Assembly: GCF_018069755.1 (NCBI RefSeq)
Contig: NZ_JAGQDE010000010.1
Location: 62,001 to 126,000 of the forward strand
DNA from: Ideonella aquatica
Lineage (GTDB): Bacteria > Pseudomonadota > Gammaproteobacteria > Burkholderiales > Burkholderiaceae_C
Direction: 5' to 3'
Length of the DNA stretch: 64,000 bases
Under the pieces are notes generated by a model that was given only the letters and a program-made list of their open reading frames with translations, was not told where the DNA came from and searched no databases. Positions 735-62,388 of this stretch are shown piece after piece. Positions within the stretch are counted from its first letter, which is position 1, and each line of letters starts with the position of its first letter. The position numbers were made by a program, and so were the translations under genes.

Positions 735-863
735 TAGGCGTCTGAGGCGCCAAGCACCTGTCAGTGCTCACGTTTCCTGGCGGACAGGCTCGCACACCAA
801 AGACTGGGATCCTTGCGCAAGTGCTTGTTTCCCAAGCACTTGCCAGGCAACGCGTAAAAAGGG
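735..863 (-). promoter_or_regulatory. CRISPR leader between cas6f and the array
   Basis: The 129-bp non-coding stretch between the cas6f stop codon and the first repeat sits where I-F leaders normally lie. On the minus strand it starts, overlapping the cas6f stop, with TTTTGACCCTTTTTACGCG, a T-rich run of the kind seen in other I-F leaders. It also holds a strong 11-bp inverted repeat at 817-843. Promoter boxes and an IHF site are expected from the family, but I cannot place them with certainty. Confidence 0.8.
817..843 (-). other. Perfect 11-bp inverted repeat in the CRISPR leader
   Basis: GCAAGTGCTTG (817-827) and CAAGCACTTGC (833-843) are exact reverse complements around TTTCC. No T-run follows on either strand, so it is a poor intrinsic terminator. 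It could be a protein-binding dyad used in leader recognition, or a transcript hairpin separating cas mRNA from pre-crRNA. The function is not shown by the sequence. Confidence 0.5.
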
Positions 864-1424
864 TCAAAACCAAGGGACGGTCGCAGTGGTGCTCAACCCG
901 TAGGCATTGAACTCGCCGCTAGCCTGCGGGCAAGGCGCACCCAGCCGAAGGAAGAACTTGAACCGTTGTCCTGTACTGGCACTGGACAAGCGCAAGTAGG
1001 GGAGTTTCAAGGTCTCAGCACAGCTGTCGGGCACCCGCTGCAGTGCCTCTTCATGGCTCAGGTTGTGTCGTCGCATTTGACGTCGCCGAAGCCGCTCAGC
1101 ACTGCTTTTGGCCTGGACTCGGCGCAGTGTGCGTTGAACAGCTTCCGCGGGCACCGGGGCCATGCCTCGCACGTCGGCATGGTCACGCATGCCTTTGAGC
1201 CAATCGTGCTCCATGAGCCGCGTCAATTCGACGGCAGGCCCCAGAAGCCGCAGGGTTGGTCCCAGGGTGACAGGGGACTCCGAGTAGCCGGGGAAGCTCA
1301 CGGCAATCTGCCGGCTCTGCACCAGTGCCAGCCAGCGGTGCAGCTTGGTAAAGAGAGCGGCCATCAACTGATGCTCTGCGAATTCTGGGTCCGGCCGCAG
1401 ATGTATGTCGATGTAGTGATGCAT
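864..1424 (-). CDS. cas6f: Type I-F pre-crRNA endoribonuclease Cas6f (Csy4)
   Basis: A 186-aa protein, the usual Csy4 length, that cuts each repeat 3' of its stem-loop and stays bound to the crRNA as the head of the Csy complex. It opens MHHYIDIHLRPDPEF like other Csy4 proteins. His29 (in FTKLHRWL) matches the known catalytic histidine of Pseudomonas Csy4. Arg102, Gln104, Arg115, Arg118 and Arg119 of the arginine-rich helix (about 101-120) fall at the same numbers as the RNA-binding residues of that enzyme, and a Ser-rich segment at 147-150 before TGQ supplies the catalytic serine region. The C-terminus VPWF is also typical. It is the last gene of the cas operon, 7 bp after csy3, and its stop codon abuts the CRISPR leader. 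Confidence 0.97.
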   Translation of the reverse strand: MHHYIDIHLRPDPEFAEHQLMAALFTKLHRWLALVQSRQIAVSFPGYSESPVTLGPTLRLLGPAVELTRLMEHDWLKGMRDHADVRGMAPVPAEAVQRTLRRVQAKSSAERLRRRQMRRHNLSHEEALQRVPDSCAETLKLPYLRLSSASTGQRFKFFLRLGAPCPQASGEFNAYGLSTTATVPWF

Positions 1425-1431
1425 TGTCGAC

Positions 1432-2472
1432 TCACTCCTTGCTTGCGTCGCCGAATACGCCGCCGCGAATCAGCGTGGCCATGACGAAATGCTGCTGTTC
1501 CACTGATGGCACTTTGTCCTTGAGAAGCCAGCTGTCCAACAGGTTGTAGAAGTCCAGCTTGTCGGTCGGCTTTCGACAGGCCTTGCCTAGCGTGGTCACC
1601 GAGCCGTAGGGCTCTACGGCAATGGGTCCCAACTCGGCCACATCGGGGTGCCAGGTGTCGATGGTGCGCAGGGCGTTGCCGAGCTTTTGAGAGTGGATGC
1701 CTGCCACGCCCTGGACGTGGTAAAGCGTCTTGCTCTTCTTGCTGTTGCCCTTGTCCAGAATGAGTTCCTGCGAGGGATAGACTTCCTGCGCAGCACCAAC
1801 TCGGGCATAGGCCGTGATTTGCAGCAGCACGTGGCTGCTGCCGGCCAGGCCTTGAGCGATCAGCGCAGCCAAGGCGCCCAGTTCCGATTCTGTGGTTGCC
1901 GGCGCCGAGAAATCGCGCAGTGGCAGGCTCAGAGCGTCGAACACCCAGGTTCGGGCCGCTTGGCCTTGCGCCAGGTGAACAACGTGAACCTCTACCTGCT
2001 CGGCGCCCACTCGGTTGCGCCAGAGGAAACGTGCATTGGCCAGATTGTGGGCGTAGCGCCGGGCAAGTTCGGTGAAGCCCTGTGCCTCCACGTAGCCCTT
2101 CACCGTGCTCAGCAACTTGGTCTGGTAGTCGGCGTTGTTGCAGGCGGATGGGAAGCCCATGCCGGCCAGCACGCGTAGCGTGAAGCTGACCTTCAGCGTA
2201 TCCGCGTCGGCGGGCAGGGCTGCCACGTCCACGGTTTGCAGGTTGGGGTTTTCAATGGCGGCATCTAGCTTGGCTGGATCCTGATCCTTGGTTTTGAGCC
2301 GATTGGAGATCGTGCCCCGAACGGACTTCTCATTGATCTTGACCGGGGCCCAGCCTGCACTGTTGCTTCGGCTGTCCCAAGTGCCGGCGAAGAACTGCGC
2401 GTCGGAGGGGTCCAGCTTGCGCTCGAAGGCGAGCACAGAAGCGGTCTTGAGAGTGATTTCCTTGGTTGCCAT
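1432..2472 (-). CDS. csy3: Type I-F Cascade backbone protein Csy3 (Cas7f)
   Basis: A 346-aa Cas7-family backbone subunit; in I-F complexes six copies coat the spacer part of the crRNA. The N-terminus ([20 protein letters not shown]), the FFAGTWDSR segment near residue 28 and the [15 protein letters not shown] stretch near 145-160 are family hallmarks, and the length agrees with the usual 340-350 aa. The ATG at 2472 has a good Shine-Dalgarno (GGGAG, 7 nt upstream on the coding strand). It lies 18 bp after csy2 and 7 bp before cas6f, so it is co-transcribed with both. Confidence 0.96.
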
Positions 2473-2490
2473 GGTGATCTCCCTGGGTGT

Positions 2491-3510
2491 TCAGATGGGG
2501 GTGGCCGATGTGGCCGAGGTATCGATGAAGCAGCGGTACAGCCCGTGGTCGTTGGGCTGTTCCGAACGGTGGTCGTGGCCGCTTTGCCAAATGAGGTCGT
2601 TGAGGCGCCGCAAGCGATGAGGGCTGATCCACTGTCCGATGGACCAGATGGTTTCGACGAATCGGAAAGGCACGGCCATGTCGCGCGCGCCTGCTACGCT
2701 GCCCGCTGGCAGCAGCGGTGACAGCGCGGCAAAGCCAACCGGTATGGGCACGATCCAGCCCGGACGAGGGTCGGTCTGCCAGGCCGTGTGGCTGTCCGGC
2801 TGGTCCTCGGCATCAGCGGCTGAGCGCTCAACCGGCCGACTGGTCCATCGGGCCAAGTCCAGCCAGGCATCCAGCGTGCTGGCTTGGGGACTTCGGGCAC
2901 GCAGCTCGACCAGTTGTTGATCCAATAGATCGTCGCGTGCAATGAGCGCAAAGCCCGGCACCAAACGCCGTGCCAACCGGCGGAACTGCTGGTGTTGCTC
3001 CTCTGAGTCGTCGGGGACCAAAGCCAGCAAGGGCCGTGTCGGACGCCGTTTGCTGGAGGCCAAAGGCGGCATGACGCTGCCCCCTGCCAGGCGCATGTCG
3101 GCCAAGGTTCTTGCAACGTGCTCCGCCAGGGTGTCACGCGCGGCGTCGTTGAGCAGCCCATCCGCCAGCCTCACCTCGAACACCAGACTGATGTCCAGGT
3201 GAACGCGGCCTTCCTCCACGATGGCTGCGGTGCTGCCATCCTGCAGCACGGGGTTGCGGGTGAGGTGAAAGGCCCGTGTATAGCCATCCGTTGTCACCTG
3301 CGCCTCGAAGCCATGGCACACCACGCCTACGCCCAGCAGGTTGATGCCGGCTTGCGGGCCCAATCGGCGCTCCAGTGCAGTCATCAGGCCGGTAAAGGCG
3401 GTGATGGCCGGGAAGCCCCAGGTGAGCGGGCTGGAGATGGCATTGGCGTTTTGCACCCGGATGTGCGGCAGCAGCAAAAGACCGCGATGTGGCAGATTGG
3501 TTTGGCTCAC
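2491..3510 (-). CDS. csy2: Type I-F Cascade subunit Csy2 (Cas5f)
   Basis: A 339-aa Cas5-like subunit that caps the 5' handle of the crRNA together with Csy1. It opens with MSQTNLPHRGLLLLPHIRVQ and has the NANAISSPLTWGFPAITAF segment near residues 22-40 that is typical of Csy2 (the SSPLTWGFP block). Its start overlaps the csy1 stop by 4 bp (ATGA), which implies translational coupling and 1:1 production with Csy1, as known for the heterodimer. The identification rests on the conserved N-terminal block, the length and the fixed csy1-csy2-csy3 order. Confidence 0.95.
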   Translation of the reverse strand: MSQTNLPHRGLLLLPHIRVQNANAISSPLTWGFPAITAFTGLMTALERRLGPQAGINLLGVGVVCHGFEAQVTTDGYTRAFHLTRNPVLQDGSTAAIVEEGRVHLDISLVFEVRLADGLLNDAARDTLAEHVARTLADMRLAGGSVMPPLASSKRRPTRPLLALVPDDSEEQHQQFRRLARRLVPGFALIARDDLLDQQLVELRARSPQASTLDAWLDLARWTSRPVERSAADAEDQPDSHTAWQTDPRPGWIVPIPVGFAALSPLLPAGSVAGARDMAVPFRFVETIWSIGQWISPHRLRRLNDLIWQSGHDHRSEQPNDHGLYRCFIDTSATSATPI

Positions 3511-4817
3511 AGCACACCCTCCCGCTCCATGGCCTTGAACAGTTCGCGGGCCTGCGCGCGCCAGTGCAAATACTCGGGGTCCCCTAGGGGCAGCGGGTCA
3601 CGCAGCTCGTGGTTGAGCCAGTTGGCGAAGTCCTGTGCCAGCGCGTCGATCAGATCAGGCACCGGGTCGGTCCCGCCATCAGGATCCAGCCAGACGCGAT
3701 GAGTGGCTGGCAGCTCGCATCGCGGGTCTGTCGACCAACCTGGTTCCAAGGTCTGCTGCTCAGCGGTGAACAGCATCAGCTCTTCCAGGAGAGCCTCCAC
3801 CCACTCATCGCGTTGGGTGCGGGTGGCCTGATTGCTCGCAGGATCGCCTTCCAGGAAGCGGCGCAGCAGTAGCGTCAGTCGGCGCACTTCTGGCCGGTGG
3901 CGATAGACCTTGAACAGTGAGGCCGTGCCCAACACGGGGCGGACCTCTGCTGAACGCCACACCGGCGGCAGCGAGGCCAGCAGCAGGTTGTCGCCCCGCC
4001 GCTCGCTGTTCAGCTGACTGATGTTCTGCGGTTTGGTGCCACCCAGCTTCTGAATGGCCAGGTGCGGGTACTCCCGCACCGGTCGCTCGTGCCAACGCTC
4101 CGCCTTCCGGGCCTCGCGGGCGGACTTGGCTTCTTCGCTGAAGCGGTCGTCTTGCAGCGTCTGGTAGACGCGATGGACCAGAGAAGTGGGATACAGCGGG
4201 GCCAGCAAGTGGTAGCCCGTGTCGTCGTGCGGATCATCGCCCACCGGCCAGTAGAGCTGCTTGGCCAGCGGATGCGAGGACGGATGTGGGCAACGTGGCA
4301 CATCGATGCTCGCCAGCTTGAAGGCAACCTTGGTTGCACCCTCCGCCGAATTGCTGAGGGCGGCGACAGCGTCAGCGTCACCCTCCTTTAGCCATGCCAG
4401 GACGCTCTGTCCGTCGACAGGAACCGACAGTAGACGGAATAGTTCGTAGACCAACTTGTTAAAGGCGCCATTGCCGGTAGCGTCTCTATCTACGTAGGTA
4501 CCCAGGACATGCGATCCCACCCAGGGCAGTTCGGGCAGACCAGCGCAGTCTACGTTCAGGTTGGTTGCATTCCGAACCTTCGTATCGGGATGAACCGCCT
4601 TCAAGATGTGTGTGGCGATCTGAATCTGATCAACGCATTCCGCGCCCTTTTCCAGAAGGGACTGGAGCTGATAGAAATCTTGCTGCTTCTTTCGCTCCTT
4701 GTCGGCAGCTGCATCTGTTCCAGTGATCTTCAACAGCACGTTGTTCAAGCGTGTTGTGATGTGCGCTTGCAGTGCGGCTCGGATCGACGCGGATCGCATA
4801 GGGTCTGGTGGTGACAT
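3507..4817 (-). CDS. csy1: Type I-F Cascade large subunit Csy1 (Cas8f)
   Basis: A 436-aa protein, the normal Csy1 length; in I-F surveillance complexes this subunit reads the CC PAM and recruits Cas2-3. Recognisable stretches are the middle motif around FEG-free GTKPQNISQLNSERRGDN (about residues 260-278, the most conserved Csy1 block) and a downstream LLLASLPPVW. It lies 56 bp after cas2-3, the widest gap inside the cas operon, so a separate promoter for the Cascade genes is possible. It overlaps csy2 by 4 bp. Confidence 0.95.
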   Translation of the reverse strand: MSPPDPMRSASIRAALQAHITTRLNNVLLKITGTDAAADKERKKQQDFYQLQSLLEKGAECVDQIQIATHILKAVHPDTKVRNATNLNVDCAGLPELPWVGSHVLGTYVDRDATGNGAFNKLVYELFRLLSVPVDGQSVLAWLKEGDADAVAALSNSAEGATKVAFKLASIDVPRCPHPSSHPLAKQLYWPVGDDPHDDTGYHLLAPLYPTSLVHRVYQTLQDDRFSEEAKSAREARKAERWHERPVREYPHLAIQKLGGTKPQNISQLNSERRGDNLLLASLPPVWRSAEVRPVLGTASLFKVYRHRPEVRRLTLLLRRFLEGDPASNQATRTQRDEWVEALLEELMLFTAEQQTLEPGWSTDPRCELPATHRVWLDPDGGTDPVPDLIDALAQDFANWLNHELRDPLPLGDPEYLHWRAQARELFKAMEREGVL

Positions 4818-4873
4818 TCAGTTCTCCCTGAAAGTTGAGGTCGGGTGGTGCGTTTGAATAGTCCGTGTGTGCT

Positions 4874-7800
4874 TCACCTCCGTTTCGCAAAGCCCAGCGC
4901 TGGGTGGTAGCGCCAGCCTTCCTCCTGCTGGTCGCCTGGCACGGCGACCGTTCCAAATCGCTTGGCGCAAGAATCGAGAGGCAGGTCCAACGCCAGGGCC
5001 AAATCGGCCAATGCGCCAAGATAGTCGGTGGTGCCCCAAACCTCCATGCGGTCACCGCGCACGGCATCGTCCGGCACACGGTGGTGCAGGGAGCGATCGA
5101 TGGGCACGTAGAGGTTCTGACCCCGCTTGGGGCCCTCGATCACGCGGTGCAGCAGGACATCGTCTCCGTCCTCGTCTGGCAGCAGCACCAAGGTCACGTC
5201 TGGCGGCGACGGCTCCTGGCGGAAGGGCTGGGCGCGCTGCAGCACCGCGGTGAGCGTGGCGTCTTGCGGGGCGGCATGCCACCAGGTACTGGCATTGAGC
5301 TCGAGTGCTGGCGGCGTTGTTGCCGCCTGGCTGCGGGCACGGCTCATCAGCCCTCCAGCGGGCGTGTGCGCTGGTGCGACGCTGGGCAGCATGTGCTTGT
5401 GCAGCCGGGCATGCTCCAAGTCGACCAGGCGCTGCTGGGCTTGTAGCACCGGTGGCGGCACGATACGGGGACGGGCGTCGATGGCAGCCAGTTCCTCAGG
5501 GCGCAGCAGAGCGTGCAGATCGTGGGTGCTCAGGTGGAACGCGGGCCCGTCCGTCTCGAAACCGGGGCGACGGAAGGCCGCACGTCCAGGTTCGCGGAAG
5601 TGACGCAGGTTGTGGTCGAAGACCAGCAGATTGGGGCTTTCCACCGCCCCGCGCCGGTGCCGACGAACGCGGCCGGCCAGTTGGATCAGGGAGCGCATGG
5701 AGGAGGGCTCCACCAAGGCCCAGTCGTAGTCATGGTCCCGACCCACTTCAGTCACGGGCGAGCCGAGCACGATGAAGAGCTGATCGAGCTCGGGCGCTGT
5801 ATCCAGCCGCTGGCGAATGTCCGACAGCGAGAACACGGCCGATGGGTCATGTCGGTTCAGAGTGCGGTCGAGCTGCTGCTCAATCGCCGAACGGATCAAT
5901 AGTGGGTGGCGGGAGTGGTAAACACATAGGTGGACTCGGCAGCCAGGTGGCACCGGTTGGCGGAACAGGGCCAGGGCCACTTCGAACAGCGGTTCGATAT
6001 TGGCCATGCGGACGAGGCCGAAGCTGACGCGGTGGCCGCTGACGGGATCCACGCTGTGATGCTGCTGGTGCAGGCTCGCCGCGGCGGCCAGCATGGCCGG
6101 CGCCCAGACGGCAGCCAGGGTGGCGATGTCCTTGGCCCCTGGTTGGGGCGGCTTGGGCGCTGACAGCAGCGCTGCGCGGCGCCGCGGCTGAGCCGCCAGC
6201 CTGGCCAGTTCGGTGTGGCGCTGTTGGGCAAACTGAGCGTGGGCGCGGCCGAAGCTGGCGGGATCAGGGCAGTCCTGCGCTTGTTGGTTGAACTCATCCA
6301 CCCATGCACAACAGACCACAGGTGGGATGTCGGCGCCCCCCGGGTGGGCGCCGCAGTTGCGCTGAAAGTGGTGGCGACCGTTCCGGTAGGCCTCGAACAG
6401 ACCCTGGATGAGGGCCGGCGGCAAGGTGGCCGAAGACAGCAGCACTCGTGCGCCCAGCAGTCCGGCCCAATGCACGAGCCGCGTGAGTGCGGGTAGATCG
6501 GCCAGATCAAAGTCGTCGGGCTCGTCCAGCACAAGGTCTCCACTCATCAGGCGCAACATGGGGGCGATCTGTCGGCCTCCACGTTGGCTCTCGGTGGCTG
6601 GGGTGAGGTGATCGATGGTGCACACGAGCAGTGGCGCCAACAGCAGCTTGCTGACTTCAGGGTCAGCCACAGCACGGCGCAGCAGGGGGTGCTGGTCGGT
6701 CGCACCTTCGAACAGCACGTGGCTGTCCTCCTCCAGGAGCGCCTGCCCGGAGGCCGACCCTCGCGCCTCGGCCAAGCCCTCGAAAAACTCGAACAAGGCG
6801 CGGTTTGCCGAGCCACCCACGCGGATGGCCAGGTCGTCATCTCCCAGTCCGAGCATGGCGCGGAACGACTGACCCGTCTGCAAGGTCAGCGTTCGCAAGC
6901 CCAAAGCAAAGGCACAGCGCAGGCCTTGGGTGGGATCGGCCAGTGCATACATGATGCGGGCATTGGCCAGCGTCTTGCCACATCCGGTGGAGGCCATGTT
7001 GACGAGAAAGGCGCCGTGCTGTTGGGCACGTTCACGCAAAGCGGCAGCCAGTTCGGCCGACTTGTCCTGCCAGCGAAAGCGTTCGTCGCGCGTGCGCTGT
7101 CTGAGCCCTTTGTGGGCGCCCAGGCGAGGCAGGTGCGTGGCCAGTCGGGGCAGGAAGCGCGCCACTTCCGAGCCGTGCTGGGCCACGCCCAGCAGATGCT
7201 CGTCGAGTCGCTGGTTCGGGCGGCCACCCTCCAGGGTGTTGGCCCATAAGGGGTGGTCAGCGTCGCCTTTCACTCGCTCGGCGCTGTCGCCCTGCAAGCG
7301 GGAATAGTGGTGATCGGCCAACATCAGGCTGAGCCGGCTCAGGTGCATCACGAACGGGTTGTTCAGCAGGCTATCTGCAGCGGGCTCTCCAGGCTGACGG
7401 GCTCGCCAGTCGGCTAGGCGCCCTGCGATGCGGCTGGCTCGACGGCGCCAGGCTGCGCTGCTGACGGGCAGGCCCTGCGGGAAGTGCCAGTAGGGCGCGA
7501 AGGCGGCCGGTTCGGCCTGATCAAACGCCTGTTCATTCCAGTCTGGTTGCACTTGGGTGAGCAGACCTCGCAGGCGTGACATCTGAAATCTGTCGTTCTC
7601 CTCCCTGCTTTTGGGCAAGGCCGGCAGCCGGTGATGGGTGACAACGAGCCAGCCCAGTGCCGACGCCAGTGGCGCGTTCTGCAGCGTCTTGAAGGGCGAA
7701 TCGAAGTGACCCCGGAGCCCGTCGCAACGCAGCTCCCGTCGCCATCGAGCATCGTCTTCGGCACTGGGACAGGCCAGCCGCCCCAGCCAAGTGGCGTCGT

Positions 7801-56677: not shown

Positions 56678-56764
56678 CCGGCCTGAAAGGTTTGGCGGTC
56701 CTGGTTCGACTGACTCCATGTGCGAGATGACTTGCACATCGTCAACCCAACCCAAGGAACCACC
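56678..56764 (+). promoter_or_regulatory. Duplicated control block upstream of precursor 1
   Basis: From CCGGCCTG (56678) to the start codon this block resembles the one before precursor 2: shared elements are CCGGCCTG, AGGTT a few bases later, CGAC 13-14 bp after that, a palindrome, CCCAACCC and AGGAAC before the ATG. Here the palindrome is ATGTGC (56718-56723) with GCACAT (56734-56739). AGGTT and CGAC would suit an ECF sigma promoter with a short spacer; that reading is inference. Confidence 0.5.
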
Positions 56765-57013
56765 ATGAACCTCCGCCACGCCGCCCTGCTCGCCGCCGCC
56801 CTGATCGCCCAGTCCGCCGCCCATGCCGCGCCGCCCAAGGACAGCGCCTGCGGTGCCGGCTCCTGCGGCAAGAAGACCGCCACCGCCCCGAAGAACGCCG
56901 CGTCCGGCGCCACCGATGCCGGCTGCAGCAAGAAGGACGGCGGCTGCTCCAAGAAGGCCGGCGGCAAGGAGAGCGGCTGCTCCAAGAAGGATGGCGGCTG
57001 CTCGAAGAAGTGA
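56765..57013 (+). CDS. Secreted Cys/Lys/Gly-rich RiPP precursor, copy 1
   Basis: An 82-aa peptide. The signal peptide MNLRHAALLAAALIAQSAAHA is cleaved after residue 21, and the core follows. Six cysteines (29, 34, 54, 61, 72, 79) sit in repeats of the form GCSKKDGG, with CGAGSCGKK near the front. It has no DUF2282 pattern and no EGKCG repeats, the two known core types beside DUF692 enzymes (bufferins and HvfA). Because the next gene is a DUF692 oxidase that modifies Cys in such peptides, I infer a copper- or metal-binding, modified periplasmic peptide. The start has AGGAAC upstream and the stop overlaps the GTG region before hvfB. Confidence 0.82.
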   Translation: MNLRHAALLAAALIAQSAAHAAPPKDSACGAGSCGKKTATAPKNAASGATDAGCSKKDGGCSKKAGGKESGCSKKDGGCSKK

Positions 57014-57021
57014 GCGCGGCG

Positions 57022-57813
57022 ATGAACACGTCTGCTGTGGGCATCGGTTACCGGCGCGAGATGGCCGAGTGGGATCTGTCGGCGCTGCCCGCCGACTTCC
57101 ACGAGGTCGTCCCCGAGAACTGGCTGCGCCGCGACCGCGCCCCGCTGCACGCGATGCGTGCACTGGGCCGGCCGGTGTGGCTGCACGGGGTCACGCTGAA
57201 CCTGGGCGGCACCGCGCCGCTGAACGTGGCGATGCTGCGCGAGGTGGCTGCGCTGATGGATGAGCTGGGTGCCACCTGGTACTCGGACCACCTGGCCGCC
57301 AGCGGTGATGCCCACCAGCTGCACGACCTGTTCCCGCTGCCGCACACGCAGACTGAGCTGATCCGCGTGGCCGACCGCATCCGCCAGGCGCAGGACATCC
57401 TGGGCCGGCGCATGGCGATCGAGAACCCCACCTGGTACGCCAACATCGGCGACATCCCCGAGCCCGATTTCCTGGCCGGTGTGGCCGATCGGGCCGACTG
57501 CGCGGTGCTGCTGGACCTCAACAACATCGAGGTCAACCGCAAGAACCACGGCAGCCCGCCGCTGGACGCCTTCATGGCCCGGCTGTCGCCCGATCGCATC
57601 GCCTACCTGCATGTGGCCGGCCATGAATGGGACGAGCGCTTCGGCCTGCATGTGGACACCCATGCGCGCTCGGCATCTGATGAGGTGCGTGCCCAGGCGC
57701 GTGCGCTGTCGGCCGCGCACGGCTGGCCGGTGCTGCTGGAATGGGACCACGACCTGCCGGAGCCCGCGGGCCTGGCCGAGGAGCTCGCATGTCTGCGTTC
57801 TTCGACTATGTGA
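57022..57813 (+). CDS. DUF692 multinuclear non-heme iron oxidase (MNIO; HvfB/BufB/MbnB-like)
   Basis: A 263-aa TIM-barrel enzyme of the MbnB/TglH/HvfB family, which oxidises cysteines of peptide substrates to oxazolone-thioamide, thiooxazole or related groups. The metal-ligand blocks are visible: HGVTLNLGG, WYSDHLAA, IENPTWY, LLDLNNIEVNRKNHG, LHVAGHEWDE, VDTHARSASDEV and LLEWDHDLPE, with the usual His, Asp, Glu and Asn ligands. The start is taken at ATG 57022; a GTG at 57010 overlapping the precursor stop is the alternative. It lies 8 bp after precursor 1 and overlaps the HvfC-like gene by 25 bp. Confidence 0.92.
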   Translation: MNTSAVGIGYRREMAEWDLSALPADFHEVVPENWLRRDRAPLHAMRALGRPVWLHGVTLNLGGTAPLNVAMLREVAALMDELGATWYSDHLAASGDAHQLHDLFPLPHTQTELIRVADRIRQAQDILGRRMAIENPTWYANIGDIPEPDFLAGVADRADCAVLLDLNNIEVNRKNHGSPPLDAFMARLSPDRIAYLHVAGHEWDERFGLHVDTHARSASDEVRAQARALSAAHGWPVLLEWDHDLPEPAGLAEELACLRSSTM

Positions 57814-58058
57814 GAGGCCGCAGCGACGAGCTGCCCGCCGGCTACGACGAGCGCGGCATGCGCCTGTACCGCCACCTGGTGTGGCTGGGCGCCAGCCAGA
57901 CCATCGAGGCCCACCATCCGGACCTGCGTGAACAGCTGGGCGAAGAGGCCTGGCGCGGGCTGATCGAGGCCTGGGTGCGCGACTCCACCTGGGACTCGCC
58001 CTTCGTCAACGACCTGGCCGAGGACTTTGCCGCCTTCCTCGCGCGGACCTCGGCCTGA
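57789..58058 (+). CDS. Short HvfC/BufC (DUF2063) N-terminal-domain protein, MNIO partner
   Basis: An 89-aa protein that matches only the N-terminal helical domain of HvfC/BufC: GMRLYRHLVWLGASQTIEA, HHPDLREQLGEEAWRGLIEA and DLAEDFAAFL. Full-length relatives have a further C-terminal domain that binds the precursor peptide, about 250 aa in total. That second domain is missing, and the next frames do not supply it. It starts 25 bp inside the MNIO gene, so coupling is strong. It probably presents the precursor to the oxidase, perhaps in a minimal way. Confidence 0.8.
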   Translation: MSAFFDYVRGRSDELPAGYDERGMRLYRHLVWLGASQTIEAHHPDLREQLGEEAWRGLIEAWVRDSTWDSPFVNDLAEDFAAFLARTSA

Positions 58059-58077
58059 GCCGCTGCGCCAGCTGGCC

Positions 58078-58278
58078 ATGCATTGCCGCGACGCTTTCTT
58101 CCTGCTGCACAGCGGGCCGCACCACGAGGCCGGCTGGCCCCGGCGCCTGCAGGCGCACACCCACCGCTGGTGGTGTGTGCAATGCCGCCGCCTGGCCCGC
58201 GATGACGCACGCCTGGACCGTCTGCTGGCGCAGTGGCGCGCGCAGGCCTGGCGTGCCGATGACGCTGCGCCGCGCTGA
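58078..58278 (+). CDS. Tiny protein with zinc anti-sigma (ZAS) motif
   Basis: A 66-aa protein (ATG 58078; the same frame is open from 58027). It contains HRWWCVQC, an exact His-x3-Cys-x2-Cys, followed by RRLARDDARLDRLL. That is the motif and helix of zinc-binding anti-sigma domains (zf-HC2/ZAS), which hold ECF sigma factors. An N-terminal Cys (MHCRDAF) and further His residues (HSGPHHE) could add metal ligands. There is no membrane segment. No sigma gene is adjacent, so its partner would be elsewhere. It lies 19 bp after the HvfC-like gene. A role as metal-sensing anti-sigma for the cluster is inference. Confidence 0.6.
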   Translation: MHCRDAFFLLHSGPHHEAGWPRRLQAHTHRWWCVQCRRLARDDARLDRLLAQWRAQAWRADDAAPR

Positions 58279-58306
58279 GCACCACCGGCCGAAAAAAAGT
58301 GTCTCT

Positions 58307-58397
58307 CCGGCCTGTCAGGTTCTGACCGCTGGCCCGACCAAAGGACATGCACACGCTGTGCATGAGCACCCAACCCCAACCCACCAGGAACCTCACC
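58307..58397 (+). promoter_or_regulatory. Duplicated control block upstream of precursor 2
   Basis: It matches the block at 56678-56764 in order and spacing: CCGGCCTG (58307), AGGTT, CGAC, a palindrome, CCCAACCC and AGGAAC. Here the palindrome is perfect with 7-bp arms, ATGCACA (58347-58353) and TGTGCAT (58357-58363). It suggests the second precursor has its own start of transcription under the same regulator, besides read-through from upstream. Confidence 0.5.
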
Positions 58398-58637
58398 ATG
58401 AACCTCCGTCACGCCGCCCTGCTCGCCGCCGCCTTGATCGCCCAATCCACTGCCCACGCCGCGCCCGGCAAGGACAGCGCCTGCGGTGCCGGCTCCTGCG
58501 GCAAGAAGACCGCCACCGCGCCGAAGAACGCGGCGTCGGACGCCGCCTGCAGCAAGAAGGACGGCGGCTGCAGCAAGAAGGACGGTGGCAAGGAGTCGTC
58601 GTGCGCCAAGAAGGACGGCGGCTGCTCGAAGAAGTGA
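58398..58637 (+). CDS. Secreted Cys/Lys/Gly-rich RiPP precursor, copy 2
   Basis: A 79-aa paralogue of precursor 1. The signal peptide and first 47 residues are nearly identical (two differences seen); the core has six cysteines at 29, 34, 51, 58, 69 and 76 in CSKKDGG and CAKKDGG units. It is three residues shorter and lacks one Gly-Ala-Thr insertion. It arose by duplication together with its upstream block. It lies 119 bp after the ZAS-like gene and 8 bp before the DoxX gene. Two substrates for one MNIO enzyme are inferred. Confidence 0.82.
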   Translation: MNLRHAALLAAALIAQSTAHAAPGKDSACGAGSCGKKTATAPKNAASDAACSKKDGGCSKKDGGKESSCAKKDGGCSKK

Positions 58638-58645
58638 GGTCCGAC

Positions 58646-59134
58646 ATGAACGCACTCTCACTCCCCACCTGGGTCGTGCGCACGCACGGCTCGCTCACCC
58701 AGGCGATCGACGGCCTGGGCCTGCTGGCCCTGCGGCTGTGGCTGGCGCAAGAGTTCGGCCAGGCTGGCTGGACCAAGTTGAGCCATGGCCTGACGGCGCC
58801 CGAGTGGTTCGTCGGCCTGGCCTTTCCCGGCCCGCTGGGCTGGCTCTCGCCCGACATGAACTGGCTGATGGCCGGTGTGACTGAAGTGCTTGGCGCAGCC
58901 CTGCTGCTGCTGGGCTGGCCGGTGCGGCTGGCGGCGCTGGCGCTGCTCTTCGTCGATGTGATCGCCGTCTGGACCGTGCACTTCGACCTCGGCTGGGCCG
59001 GCTGGAACCAGATCGAGACCGACGCCGGCCAGGGCTTCAAGCTGCCGCTGATGATGGGCCTGATGCTGCTGGCGCTGCTGAGCCAGGGCAGCGGTCGCTG
59101 GGCCTGGCGCGGTCCCCTGCGGCCAGTGGCTTGA
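58646..59134 (+). CDS. DoxX-family membrane protein of the MNIO cluster
   Basis: A 162-aa protein with four hydrophobic segments typical of DoxX (LGLLALRLWLAQEFGQAGWTK; LMAGVTEVLGAALLLLGW; LAALALLFVDVIAVWTV; LPLMMGLMLLALL). DoxX-type proteins (HvfD/BufD) are regular members of HvfA/bufferin operons and may take part in electron transfer or export of the modified peptide; their exact job is not established. It starts 8 bp after precursor 2, with GAGG upstream. Confidence 0.9.
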   Translation: MNALSLPTWVVRTHGSLTQAIDGLGLLALRLWLAQEFGQAGWTKLSHGLTAPEWFVGLAFPGPLGWLSPDMNWLMAGVTEVLGAALLLLGWPVRLAALALLFVDVIAVWTVHFDLGWAGWNQIETDAGQGFKLPLMMGLMLLALLSQGSGRWAWRGPLRPVA

Positions 59135-59177: not shown

Positions 59178-59226
59178 AGCAGGCTCCGCTAGCGTGGGAT
59201 CGTCCATGCTGTGGAGGGACCCACCG

Positions 59227-62200
59227 ATGAAGAACACACCAATGCGCATGGGCCTCGCGGCCCTGCTGACCAGCCTGGCTGCCCAGGCCGGCGCATTCAG
59301 CCTGACCGACCGGATCGATTGCCAGCGCGCGGTCGAGCGCGTGTTGTGGCAGCACCGTGGCGACGCCGGCCAGCGCCTGGCCTTTGAGCAGGTGCTGCCC
59401 GAGCGGCTGATCCGCCGCCGCGCGGAGGATGTCGAGCGCCAGAGCAACGCGCTGGCCCAGTGGTGGCGCACGCCGATCACCAGCGCCCAGCTGCAGGCCG
59501 AGCTCGACCGCATGGCCGCTGGCTCCAAGGATCCAGCCATGCTGCGCGAGCTGTTCGCCGCGCTGGGCAACGACCCGCTGCGCGCCGCCGAATGCCTGGC
59601 CCGCCCGGCGCTGGCCGATCGCCTGTGGCGCGCCCAGTACGCGCGCGATGAACGCATTCATGGCGAGCGTCGCCGCCAGGTGCTGGCCGAGCACGCCAGC
59701 GGCCAGGCCACCACCGCCGAGCGCCAGTCCCATGTGCTGGTGCGCGACCGCGCCGCGCTGGCCGGTGCCGGTGCCGGCGCCCGGCTGCTGGCGCCCGAAG
59801 CCTTCGACCGCCAGGCCCGGCTGCTGCGCGCCGCCGCCACCACGCCGGCCGGCAGCCTGGCGCTGGGCCAGACCGTGCGCCTGCGCGAGGACAGCGACCG
59901 CTGGACTGCGGTGCGTGTGGACGCGGTTGACGGCCCGGTGCTGCGCAGCCGCGCCACCGTCTGGCGCAAGACGCCGATCGAGACCTGGTGGTCGCAGGCC
60001 CGCAAGGGCTTTGCCGCCACCCTGGCGCTGCCCGAGGCGCGCTACACCCTGCCGCAGGTGGCCACCGTCTGCCGCGATGACAGCTGGCAGCCCACCGCGT
60101 CGCTGCCCGATGGCCGCTACGAGCACACGGCGGTCTGGACCGGCAGCGAGATGATCGTCTGGGGCGGCATGGAGGCGGTGGGCAACTACCGCATCGACGG
60201 CGCCCGCTACCGTCCGGCCACGGACACTTGGCTGCCGATGGCCGATGCGCCGGTCACCCGCACCGCGATGAGCAGCGCCTGGACCGGCAGCGAGATGCTG
60301 GTCTGGGGTGGCCGCGCCGATGGCGTGGGCTCGCTCTACGACCCGGCCACCGACACCTGGCGCGCCACCAGCGCGGTCAACGCACCGCTGGAGGGCGCCT
60401 CCTGGGCCGCCTCGGTCTGGACCGGCAAGGAACTGATCGTCTGGGGCGGCATGGGCGGCATGACGGGCAACGCCGTCAACACCGGTGCCCGCTACAACCC
60501 GAAGACCGACACCTGGGTGCGCCTGCCCGCGTCGCCGCTGGCCGCGCGCGCCTTTGTGCCGGCGGCGTGGACCGGCCAGGAGATGGTGGTCTGGTCCGGC
60601 TACAACGTCAGCATCGGCCAGCTCTACGGCGATGGTGCGCGCTACAACCCCGGCACCAACCAGTGGACCCCGATGTCCACCGCCAACGCGCCGGACGCCA
60701 ACTACTGGAACACGGCGGTCTGGAGTGGCAGCGAGGTGCTGGTCTGGGGTGGTGTGGTCGGCGGTACCGAGGTGCGTGCCTACAACCCGGCCAGCAACAG
60801 CTGGCGCATCGGCAGCGGCAGCGGCATGCCGCAGTGGCGCTACATGCACGGCGCGGTCTGGACCGGCAGCGAGATGCTGGTGCACGGCGGCTGGCCGTCG
60901 GCTGCGCCGGCCGGGCTGTACAACCCGGTCACCGACAGCTGGCGCACGGCCACCGGCATCGGCCATCAGCCGGGCACCCAGGCGGGCACGCTGGTCTGGA
61001 CGGGCACCGAGGCGCTGGCCTGGGGCGGCATGGACGACCAGTTCGGCTTCCGCGCCGATGGCGGCCGCTACAACCCGTCGGCCGACAGCTGGCAGCCGAT
61101 GACCACGAACAACGTGCCCACCGGCCGCGGCCTGCACTCGGCCGAGTGGACCGGCGCCGAGATGGTGATCTGGGGCGGCTACGACGGTGTCGGTGTCACC
61201 GATGCCGGTGCGCGCTACACGCCCGCCACCGACAGCTGGCAACCCACCAGCACCGTGGGCGCGGCCACCGCACGCAACAACGCCACCGCGGTGTGGACCG
61301 GCAACGAGATCATCTTCTGGGGCGCCGGCTCCAGCGCGCCCTTCACGCCTGACACCGGCGGCATCTACAACCCCGCCACCGACCAGTGGCGGCCGATGTC
61401 CAGCAAGAAGGGCCCGTGGGTCACTTACGGCCACACGGCGGTCTGGACCGGCAGCGAGATGATCACCTACGGCGGCATCAGCTCCAGCGAAGGGCCGTAC
61501 ATCTACGACCTGGCCAGCAACAGCTGGCGCCGTGGCACGCTGAACAAGGACCCCGGCCACCGCGACCACCATGGCGCGGTCTGGAGCGGCAGCGAGATGA
61601 TCGTCTGGGGCGGCTCGATCGATGCCGGCGTCAGGCCCACCGGCGGCCGCTACAACCCCGCCACCAACACCTGGACGCCGCTGCCCGTCAGTGGCTCGCC
61701 CGATGCCCGCATGTGGCCGGTGGCGGTGTGGACCGGCAGCGAGGCCATCTTCTGGGGCGGCTATGACCAGCTCTTTGGCGTCGACTACAACGACGGCGCG
61801 CGCTTCTCGCCCACCACCGGCCAGTGGACCCGCACCAGCCAGAACGGCGCGCCCACGCCGCGCATCGCCCAGGGGGTGTACACCGGCAGCGAGATGATCG
61901 TCTGGGGCGGCACGCTCAACGGCAGCGGCGGCCGCTACGACCCGGCCACCAACAGCTGGCGCGCCACCACCCTGCTGCACGCGCCGGATGGCCGGCCGTC
62001 CGGCGGCCGCTGGAGCACGGTCTTCACCGGCGACCGCATGATCATCTGGGGCGGCTATCCGCCGGTGCGGCAAGGCGCGGCCTACTGCACCTCGGGCGCG
62101 CCCAACCAGGCGCCGCAGGCCGCGGCCGACCGCTACCGCGCCAAGCCTGGCAAGTCGCTGCTGGTGAGCACCGAGCGCAGCGTGCTGCGCAACGACAGCG

Positions 62201-62388
62201 ACGCCAACGGTGACCGCCTGGGCGCGCGCCTGGTCAGCCCGCCCGCCGGGCAGCTGAGCTTCAACGCCAACGGCAGTTTCCGCTACACGCCGCCGCCGGG
62301 CTTCACCGGCACCGACCAGTTCGACTACGTGGCCAATGACGACCTGCTCGACAGCGCGCCGACGACGGTGAGAATCCAGGTGAAGTGA
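59227..62388 (+). CDS. Exported Kelch-repeat protein with C-terminal cadherin-like domain
   Basis: A 1053-aa protein starting at ATG 59227. A signal peptide (RMGLAALLTSLAAQAGA) leads to an about 250-aa helical, Arg/Ala-rich N-terminal part rather like a PpiC-type or lipase-chaperone region. Then come about 14 Kelch-type blades, each with a variant of AVWTGSEMIVWGG followed by RYNPATDTW, spaced about 45-55 residues (from about 295 to 950). That would form two propellers. The last 95 residues (QAPQAAADRYRAKPGKSLL, NDSDANGDRLGARLVSPP, FRYTPPPGFTGTDQFDY) are a VCBS/cadherin-like Ig domain. It is probably a surface or secreted adhesion or sensing protein. A catalytic centre was not found. Confidence 0.85.
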   Translation: MKNTPMRMGLAALLTSLAAQAGAFSLTDRIDCQRAVERVLWQHRGDAGQRLAFEQVLPERLIRRRAEDVERQSNALAQWWRTPITSAQLQAELDRMAAGSKDPAMLRELFAALGNDPLRAAECLARPALADRLWRAQYARDERIHGERRRQVLAEHASGQATTAERQSHVLVRDRAALAGAGAGARLLAPEAFDRQARLLRAAATTPAGSLALGQTVRLREDSDRWTAVRVDAVDGPVLRSRATVWRKTPIETWWSQARKGFAATLALPEARYTLPQVATVCRDDSWQPTASLPDGRYEHTAVWTGSEMIVWGGMEAVGNYRIDGARYRPATDTWLPMADAPVTRTAMSSAWTGSEMLVWGGRADGVGSLYDPATDTWRATSAVNAPLEGASWAASVWTGKELIVWGGMGGMTGNAVNTGARYNPKTDTWVRLPASPLAARAFVPAAWTGQEMVVWSGYNVSIGQLYGDGARYNPGTNQWTPMSTANAPDANYWNTAVWSGSEVLVWGGVVGGTEVRAYNPASNSWRIGSGSGMPQWRYMHGAVWTGSEMLVHGGWPSAAPAGLYNPVTDSWRTATGIGHQPGTQAGTLVWTGTEALAWGGMDDQFGFRADGGRYNPSADSWQPMTTNNVPTGRGLHSAEWTGAEMVIWGGYDGVGVTDAGARYTPATDSWQPTSTVGAATARNNATAVWTGNEIIFWGAGSSAPFTPDTGGIYNPATDQWRPMSSKKGPWVTYGHTAVWTGSEMITYGGISSSEGPYIYDLASNSWRRGTLNKDPGHRDHHGAVWSGSEMIVWGGSIDAGVRPTGGRYNPATNTWTPLPVSGSPDARMWPVAVWTGSEAIFWGGYDQLFGVDYNDGARFSPTTGQWTRTSQNGAPTPRIAQGVYTGSEMIVWGGTLNGSGGRYDPATNSWRATTLLHAPDGRPSGGRWSTVFTGDRMIIWGGYPPVRQGAAYCTSGAPNQAPQAAADRYRAKPGKSLLVSTERSVLRNDSDANGDRLGARLVSPPAGQLSFNANGSFRYTPPPGFTGTDQFDYVANDDLLDSAPTTVRIQVK
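60110..62060 (+). repeat. About 14 tandem Kelch-unit repeats
   Basis: Diverged direct repeats, each containing TGGACCGGCAGCGAGATG-like sequence and GTCTGGGGCGGC. The first is at about 60136 and the last near 62020. High nucleotide similarity between some units makes copy-number change by recombination possible. Confidence 0.8.

Follow-up and report, generated by a model that had tools for sequence, protein, structure and literature searches.

A candidate fourth class of bufferin- and captophorin-like peptide clusters in Ideonella aquatica, with C[SGA]KK cores and a short DUF2063 partner

The cluster, its relatives and its precursors

The stretch of DNA analyzed here, hereafter the window, comprises 64,000 nucleotides of Ideonella aquatica (NCBI RefSeq assembly GCF_018069755.1, contig NZ_JAGQDE010000010.1, positions 62,001 to 126,000) and contains a gene cluster of the kind associated with ribosomally synthesized and post-translationally modified peptides (RiPPs). 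Six genes follow one another on the + strand between window positions 56765 and 59134: precursor 1, MNIO, DUF2063, a 66-aa protein, precursor 2 and DoxX. The precursor peptides, of 82 aa (56765–57013) and 79 aa (58398–58637), each have a Sec-type signal peptide and six Cys. The MNIO (DUF692) oxidase (57022–57813) has 263 aa and matches Pfam MbnB_TglH_ChrH (PF05114, E 3.5e-69). Its frame is overlapped by 25 bases by that of a stand-alone DUF2063 partner of 89 aa (57789–58058; PF09836, E 7e-15), which lacks the part corresponding to a RiPP recognition element (RRE). Next comes a ZAS-like (HxxxCxxC) anti-sigma-type protein (58078–58278, 66 aa), for which the NF052368 match (E 1.4e-4, 21.6 bits) is below the cut-off of 50, and the last gene encodes a DoxX / HvfX-like protein (58646–59134, 162 aa; PF07681, E 4.6e-14). 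The MNIO, the DUF2063 protein, DoxX and two Sec-secreted precursors served by one enzyme had all been proposed in a sequence-only reading of this DNA. All five were found, with Pfam matches for the three proteins, signal peptides of Sec type in both precursors and one MNIO at the cluster. The kinship to bufferin and HvfA pathways proposed in that reading is supported as well; the anti-sigma-like gene, the short form of the partner and the promoter-like motifs described below had gone unnoticed in it.

This is a known kind of cluster. In the parts of the literature searched, no name is given to peptides of this type, which may already be listed as uncharacterized. The main new point is the partner, which is a DUF2063 domain alone and lacks the RRE region that the usual partners of about 250 aa have.

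A scan of species genomes with an alignment of three MNIOs gave 46 loci, of which 39 (L033–L071) lie at 54–96% identity and seven at 37–42%. Because candidates were fetched by two peptide patterns (residues about 10–17 and 24–31), part of the conservation in those residues comes from the selection itself, and the distance from 54% down to 42% may be overstated; in a pattern-free scan the values were 96% and 61%, with none of the rest above 42%. The 39 loci are mostly from Betaproteobacteria (Ideonella alba, Comamonas, Bordetella, Aquabacterium, Vandammella, Methylophilus, Methylobacillus, Thauera and Azonexus) and include two metagenome-assembled genomes (MAGs; Moraxellaceae and Pseudomonadales). 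CSKK-type cores were sought beside the MNIOs of other genomes, as the sequence-only reading had suggested, and the arrangement recurs at these 39 loci, 35 of which have DoxX. Among 100 genomes, the window's own included, 64 held an MNIO match and three a member of the CSKK group (the own genome, one at 96% and one at 61%). When 369 genomes were drawn evenly from the class, the own genome was the sole match at 1e-55, and plasmids gave no match at 1e-50. The CSKK group is real but rare.

In each window precursor five of the six Cys stand in C[SGA]KK and the first in CGAGS, the signal-peptide cut (AHA|A) being judged by eye. The earlier description of six Cys in CSKKDGG units thus holds for the number of Cys and has to be amended for the units. 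Among the 971 stop-to-stop frames of at least 30 aa in the window, 44 contain C[SGA][KR][KR]: 42 have one copy, and the two precursors have five each. Because of this difference, and because the arrangement recurs in other genomes, the two precursors are not a chance occurrence.

The cores were compared in 40 precursors, two from the window and 38 from 37 loci, with near-identical ones kept. They have 4–10 Cys each, 258 in total, and C[SGA][KR][KR] holds 207 of these. All but one of the 40 open with C[GSA]A[GS][STA]C[GSA]KK, and the commonest Cys-Cys distance is 7 (102 spacings). Neither GKCG nor CKG is found in any of the 40, and Cys-Lys occurs at 4 of the 258 Cys. The residue after Cys is small in 249 cases (Ser in 143, Gly or Ala in 106), in line with the preference of FonBC for a small residue at this place, where every tested change except Ala blocked modification (PMC13097082).

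Is this an ordinary bufferin-2 or HvfA/oxazolin cluster, of the same enzyme class and recognition, in which the precursor has drifted? The core genes are the same, and a small residue after Cys is common to C[SGA]KK and EGKCG cores. The family models speak against such drift. BufA2 (NF050166) was unmatched by the two window precursors and by those of five relatives, though a bufferin-2 control reached 94 bits (cut-off 60). The HvfA and KCGExKCG repeat models were unmatched by the same seven, and an EGKCG control precursor passed NF050137 (31.8, cut-off 19.5) and failed the full HvfA model (33.8, cut-off 95). DUF2282 was unmatched in Pfam by the two window precursors, the ones scanned there, and a bufferin-1 control matched it in Pfam with 87.9 bits (cut-off 22.4) and was unmatched in NCBIfam. 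For the window precursors Pfam gave nothing up to E 1, and NCBIfam an unrelated model only (E 0.23 and 0.43); those of the five relatives had no meaningful NCBIfam match (best E 0.04). We rejected membership in bufferin-1, bufferin-2 or HvfA on these models and the core motifs, with controls of all three matched, and the proposal that the core differs from the DUF2282 and EGKCG types was borne out; it is unlike the CKG type too.

A different explanation is that these are unmodified, metal-binding peptides rich in Cys and Lys and that the MNIO has another substrate. Cases of bufferin precursor genes that lack an MNIO gene have been reported (PMC12452194). At 37 of our 39 loci a precursor gene precedes the MNIO by no more than 0.8 kb, and in frames of 45–400 aa no other family is common to at least 8 of the 39 loci beyond the known genes and shadow frames. 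We consider this explanation very improbable.

Several loci have peculiarities in their precursor region. The contig of L037 ends at the start of the locus, and in L063 (Methylobacillus glycogenes), upstream of 4185, the precursor is split over two reading frames by a frameshift or a sequencing error. In four Comamonas loci (L068–L071) about 0.45 kb separates precursor and MNIO and holds an extra small secreted-looking frame of about 100 aa, without Cys and with a C-terminal HGDGFGE or similar. L033 (Ideonella alba) has, at about 860–5000, a third precursor copy, which follows a stretch resembling the end of the window's methylglyoxal synthase gene and precedes the MNIO by some 4.1 kb; the genes between the two presumably encode a 2Fe-2S oxidoreductase and an AraC regulator, which they resemble.

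The oxidase and its short partner

The window MNIO is 35–42% identical to those of L006–L032, a likeness that speaks for drift; bufferin-2 enzymes differ from it in being 36–39% identical (five loci aligned). A tree of 74 MNIOs unites the 40 CSKK rows in one group (support 100/99, branch length 2.06), and bufferin-2 (22 rows) and EGKCG (10 rows) each form one as well; the program warns of long branches meeting. A second tree, made by a quick method with 26 CSKK rows (14 dropped) and 15 further MNIOs, of which 11 have a bufferin-1 type precursor as neighbor, kept the groups separate, with 89 on the bufferin-2 branch. Neither tree includes L073, which has an in-frame stop, and in the trees, residue counts and similarity network the CSKK label was given by locus, i.e. 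by MNIO similarity. All 89 MNIOs join in the network, where the CSKK enzymes are still linked to the others at score 50 (best score 51), a further point for drift. The similarity cut of PMC12452194 is 50, and the CSKK MNIOs could therefore sit inside the large cluster described there or apart from it.

The structure model of the MNIO (46 sequences given) has a pLDDT of 90.3, with residues 98–100 low, and its first nine matches in the PDB are all MNIOs (3bww, E 4.7e-19). Ten residues (H55, H90, E134, D165, N168, H197, H201, H214, E240 and D242) are invariant in 40/40 CSKK, 22/22 bufferin-2 and 11/11 EGKCG enzymes; we take the iron ligands to be among them. D242 corresponds in alignment to the catalytic base identified in PMC13097082; site numbers come from our own alignment, 3bww and the text of that paper. 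The residue before this Asp is Trp in CSKK MNIOs, not Arg, and the window enzyme reads E-W-D-H-D at the specificity site. E-W-D-T is found in 11 of the 15 further MNIOs, and the Arg16-aligned site is Arg in 34 of 40 CSKK enzymes.

Might the architecture be the same and the modification something other than thiooxazole, perhaps with a role other than copper? The distinct MNIO group, the Trp-Asp-Asn/His motif, the missing RRE and the Ser rather than Gly or Ala after most Cys would fit, and varied chemistry by MNIOs of other groups has been described (PMC12452194, PMC13097082). Against this, the active-site-type residues common to the groups are all kept, and the nearest enzymes by sequence and tree belong to classes reported to form thiooxazole. 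To this explanation we give a small chance.

A DUF2063 protein of 89–113 aa directly follows the MNIO in the window and in 39/39 loci. The term DUF2063-type partner used in the sequence-only reading is right as to the domain, and has to be narrowed to a short form, about a third of the usual length; the HvfC model covers only its positions 4–88 of 237 in the window protein. Fifty MNIO loci of other classes gave 34 separate partners, all of at least 236 aa, nine fusion-like MNIO frames and seven loci without a partner. These lengths derive from position and a loose regular expression: one of the seven (L026) shows a 256-aa frame, and at three of the nine fusion-like loci the frames named by the script (96, 222 and 175 aa) were judged non-partners. 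DUF2063 was present in all four of the 34 full-length partners that were scanned, and NGO1945_C recognized only the EGKCG-type one. At L007, L011, L014, L015, L019, L020, L028, L030 and L031, near bufferin-2 type precursors, the MNIO frames have 563–727 aa, which suggests natural fusions of MNIO and partner.

With this difference in partner length, the separate and long-stemmed MNIO group, Asn or His at the specificity site in 40/40 enzymes, and cores free of GKCG and CKG, we see a slender chance that the cluster is a drifted bufferin-2 or HvfA/oxazolin cluster.

The model of the DUF2063 protein folds alone into five helices (pLDDT 92.6). Foldseek places MbnABC chain C first (E 0.99), presumably MbnC, since chains A and B match the MNIO, and 3dee second (E 2.7); in a sequence search of the PDB 3dee (E 0.35) comes after an unrelated flavoprotein (E 0.021).

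Could an RRE be supplied from elsewhere? Domain counts over whole genomes used 33 of the 39 loci. A single DUF2063 gene (PF09836, E up to 0.001) was found in 23/33 genomes, with coordinates that by eye are within the cluster range, and a single MNIO in 22/33; the other 10 hold further DUF2063 genes. Most of the 33 genomes thus showed no further DUF2063 partner able to act in trans. The own genome has a second MNIO locus, L001 (C11:255580-256371), of bufferin-2 type and with a full-length DUF2063 partner of 257 aa. Supply of an RRE in trans by another PME1 is thought unlikely in view of the 23 genomes; it may apply in the other 10 and in the own genome, which hold more than one gene. The profile NGO1945_C, built on the C-terminal part of the Neisseria partner, had six matches and exceeded its cut-off in 4/33 genomes, beside a second DUF2063 gene and never at the cluster, and PqqD had 27 in 18/33 genomes, again none at the cluster. 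A separate RRE gene in the cluster is likewise thought unlikely, there being no extra common family among the frames compared above and no PqqD or NGO1945_C match there, although these profiles are weak controls.

Leader, promoter-like motifs and neighboring genes

Over the first 21 residues the CSKK precursors resemble one another more than bufferin-2 precursors do at comparable MNIO identity. The likeness is 0.51 against 0.29 at 50–60% identity (27 and 142 pairs), 0.55 against 0.42 at 60–70% (291 and 76 pairs) and 0.62 against 0.53 in the bin between that and >80% (81 and 9 pairs). This comparison used 29 CSKK and 22 bufferin-2 precursors, with ten named loci left out and L063 without a precursor. 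A signal peptide that serves as recognition element fits this higher likeness without being proved by it, and the same has been reported, preliminarily, for bufferin-1 (PMC12452194).

Both precursor genes are preceded on the + strand by a promoter-like motif. That of precursor 2 (58313–58338) is TGTCAGG-N15-CGAC, which matches nowhere else in the window; one or more matches also arose in 17 of 100 shuffles, so a single match is not rare. That of precursor 1 (56682–56710), TGAAAGG-N16-CGAC, is a variant of the family motif TGTCAGG-N15/16-CGAC, and was matched in 16 of 100 shuffles by a search pattern written from the site itself. In 35 upstream sequences compared (four near-identical ones having been left out) TCAGG-N16-CGAC stands exactly upstream of precursors in 16 and TGTCAGG in 24, and five single-base shuffles gave no such dyad in more than three sequences. 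Another common motif, TGTAACC ... CGTATTA, occurs upstream in L056, L057, L064, L065 and L067 (Methylophilaceae and one Oxalicibacterium MAG).

An extracytoplasmic function (ECF)-type sigma gene follows DoxX in at least 22/39 loci (20 by motif; L035 and L059 by reading), its identity being checked by profile for L049 only. The ZAS-like protein, for which no Pfam family was found, is present in 24/39 loci. Its homologues in relatives are placed after DoxX and the ECF-type sigma gene, and L033 is like the window, without a sigma gene between. Seven loci have a divergent pair of sigma and NrsF-like genes upstream (Pfam-checked in L067 only).

Upstream of the cluster lie a methylglyoxal synthase gene, identified by a family model match, and what we take, from its type of sequence, to be a glutathione-synthetase-like gene. 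Directly downstream, 59194–62388 encodes a 1064-aa repeat protein with many VWTGSEMIVWGG-type repeats, which we assume to be kelch-like. PADLOC reported no system.

Known systems, the proposed pathway and its meaning

The closest described systems are the captophorins, or MNIO-PME1 RiPPs (fontiphorin, oxazolin/HvfA and gonophorin), which share with the window a Sec-type Cys-rich precursor, the kept MNIO residues, DUF2063 and often DoxX (PMC13097082). Three precursor groups are named there (DUF2282, Lys-Cys 5-mer and multiple Cys-Lys), and the window precursors belong to none of them, as compared without that paper's own motif lists. The MNIO and the Cys-rich precursor are as in captophorins, whereas the core is C[SGA]KK, the specificity residue is Asn or His, and the partner is not DUF2063 with an RRE. 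Bufferin-2 (BufA2) has the same gene order, often six Cys and Lys near Cys; here Lys is at +2/+3 and not +1.

Many further peptides are described in PMC12452194, which counts about 4,000 MNIOs for which no precursor is named, as well as hundreds of small Cys peptides of Sec type. Its adjamnio-3 and unassigned Sec-type precursors are alike by description (Sec signal, unstructured precursor, DUF2063 signature, bufferin-like cluster), and the CSKK class, compared by description only, may be adjamnio-3 or among the unassigned. With adjamnio-3 compared in this way, no named and characterized family with C[SGA]KK cores was found in the literature searched. The CxxxxC family also has a Sec signal, and CGAG[ST]C is formally CxxxxC. 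A Lactamase_B_2 gene accompanies 54% of that family and is within the flanks of 0/33 of our loci, a weak test, since 46% of the family also lack the gene; the judgment was based on coordinates, and four candidates were rejected on reading. PME-type 1 partners are of narrow size, mostly 250–260 residues, with an RRE and tied to Sec-signal precursors, and the available parts of PMC12452194 make no mention of RRE-less ones. Short forms are described there for PME-type 2, many of them too short for both domains, as here; those lack the DUF2063 signature and their precursors lack Sec signals, both of which are present in the CSKK loci.

We regard it as probable, on the strength of sequence comparison, that the CSKK loci represent a fourth bufferin/captophorin-like class of secreted, Cys-modified RiPP metallophores with C[SGA]KK repeats, in which the modification would most likely be thiooxazole and the leader would be recognized without an RRE. 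By homology and published work, each precursor would be transcribed from a stress-type (ECF-type) promoter. With the stand-alone helical DUF2063 domain holding it, the MNIO would bind the conserved signal peptide as a leader in the cytoplasm. It would oxidize the Cys in every x-C-[SGA]-K-K unit, 5-thiooxazole being the likeliest product, with a loss of 4 H per Cys and up to about 24 Da per precursor. A loss of 4 H per Cys is described for an EGKCG relative in a paper that names copper binding in its title (PMC12538549), and all characterized MNIO-PME1 cases install thiooxazole (PMC13097082). Sec would export the product, the signal peptide would then be removed, and the Lys-rich, thiol-bearing periplasmic peptide would bind a soft metal, probably excess copper, with DoxX helping in some way. 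In PMC12452194 it is speculated that the partner masks the signal peptide before export.

A number of observations weigh against this proposal. The thiooxazole MNIOs of PMC13097082 work with partners in which an RRE is predicted, and the CSKK MNIO could therefore have a different chemistry. The tolerance of FonBC covers only part of the CSKK cores because Ser follows 143 of the 258 Cys. At the position aligned with FonB Phe250, CSKK enzymes have Asn in 36 cases and His in 4, EGKCG enzymes Phe (11/11) and bufferin-2 enzymes Asp (20/22) or Ala (2). The CSKK group stands on a long stem in the tree, and the window MNIO is below the cut-offs of HvfB (213 bits, cut-off 360) and BufB (201, cut-off 310), as its DoxX is below that of the NCBIfam HvfX model (74.8 bits, cut-off 80); the L044 MNIO scored 252 (HvfB) and 216 (BufB), and a control, L009, passed BufB with 365. 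Above 80% MNIO identity the order of leader likeness is reversed, with 0.89 for bufferin-2 and 0.82 for CSKK (4 and 7 pairs, CSKK having 7). As to regulation, the motif of precursor 1 is degenerate, and the window's ZAS-like gene is an orphan, with no sigma gene in the cluster and the promoter-like motif kept; of the sigma factors in the own genome, the one closest to that of L049 shares 43% identity with it and is encoded beside its own anti-sigma-like gene.

For the pathway without an RRE, in which a DUF2063 protein of about 90 aa and the MNIO would read the signal peptide as leader, and in which C[SGA]KK, as a fourth core class, would be served by a maturase of very small size, we judge the case about evenly balanced. 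A substrate type with a Sec signal and no RRE would put directly the question of what the RRE is for. The maturase would consist of two proteins with about 350 residues in all, and the CSKK loci would provide a fourth pair of enzyme and substrate with which to test how MNIOs choose their Cys.

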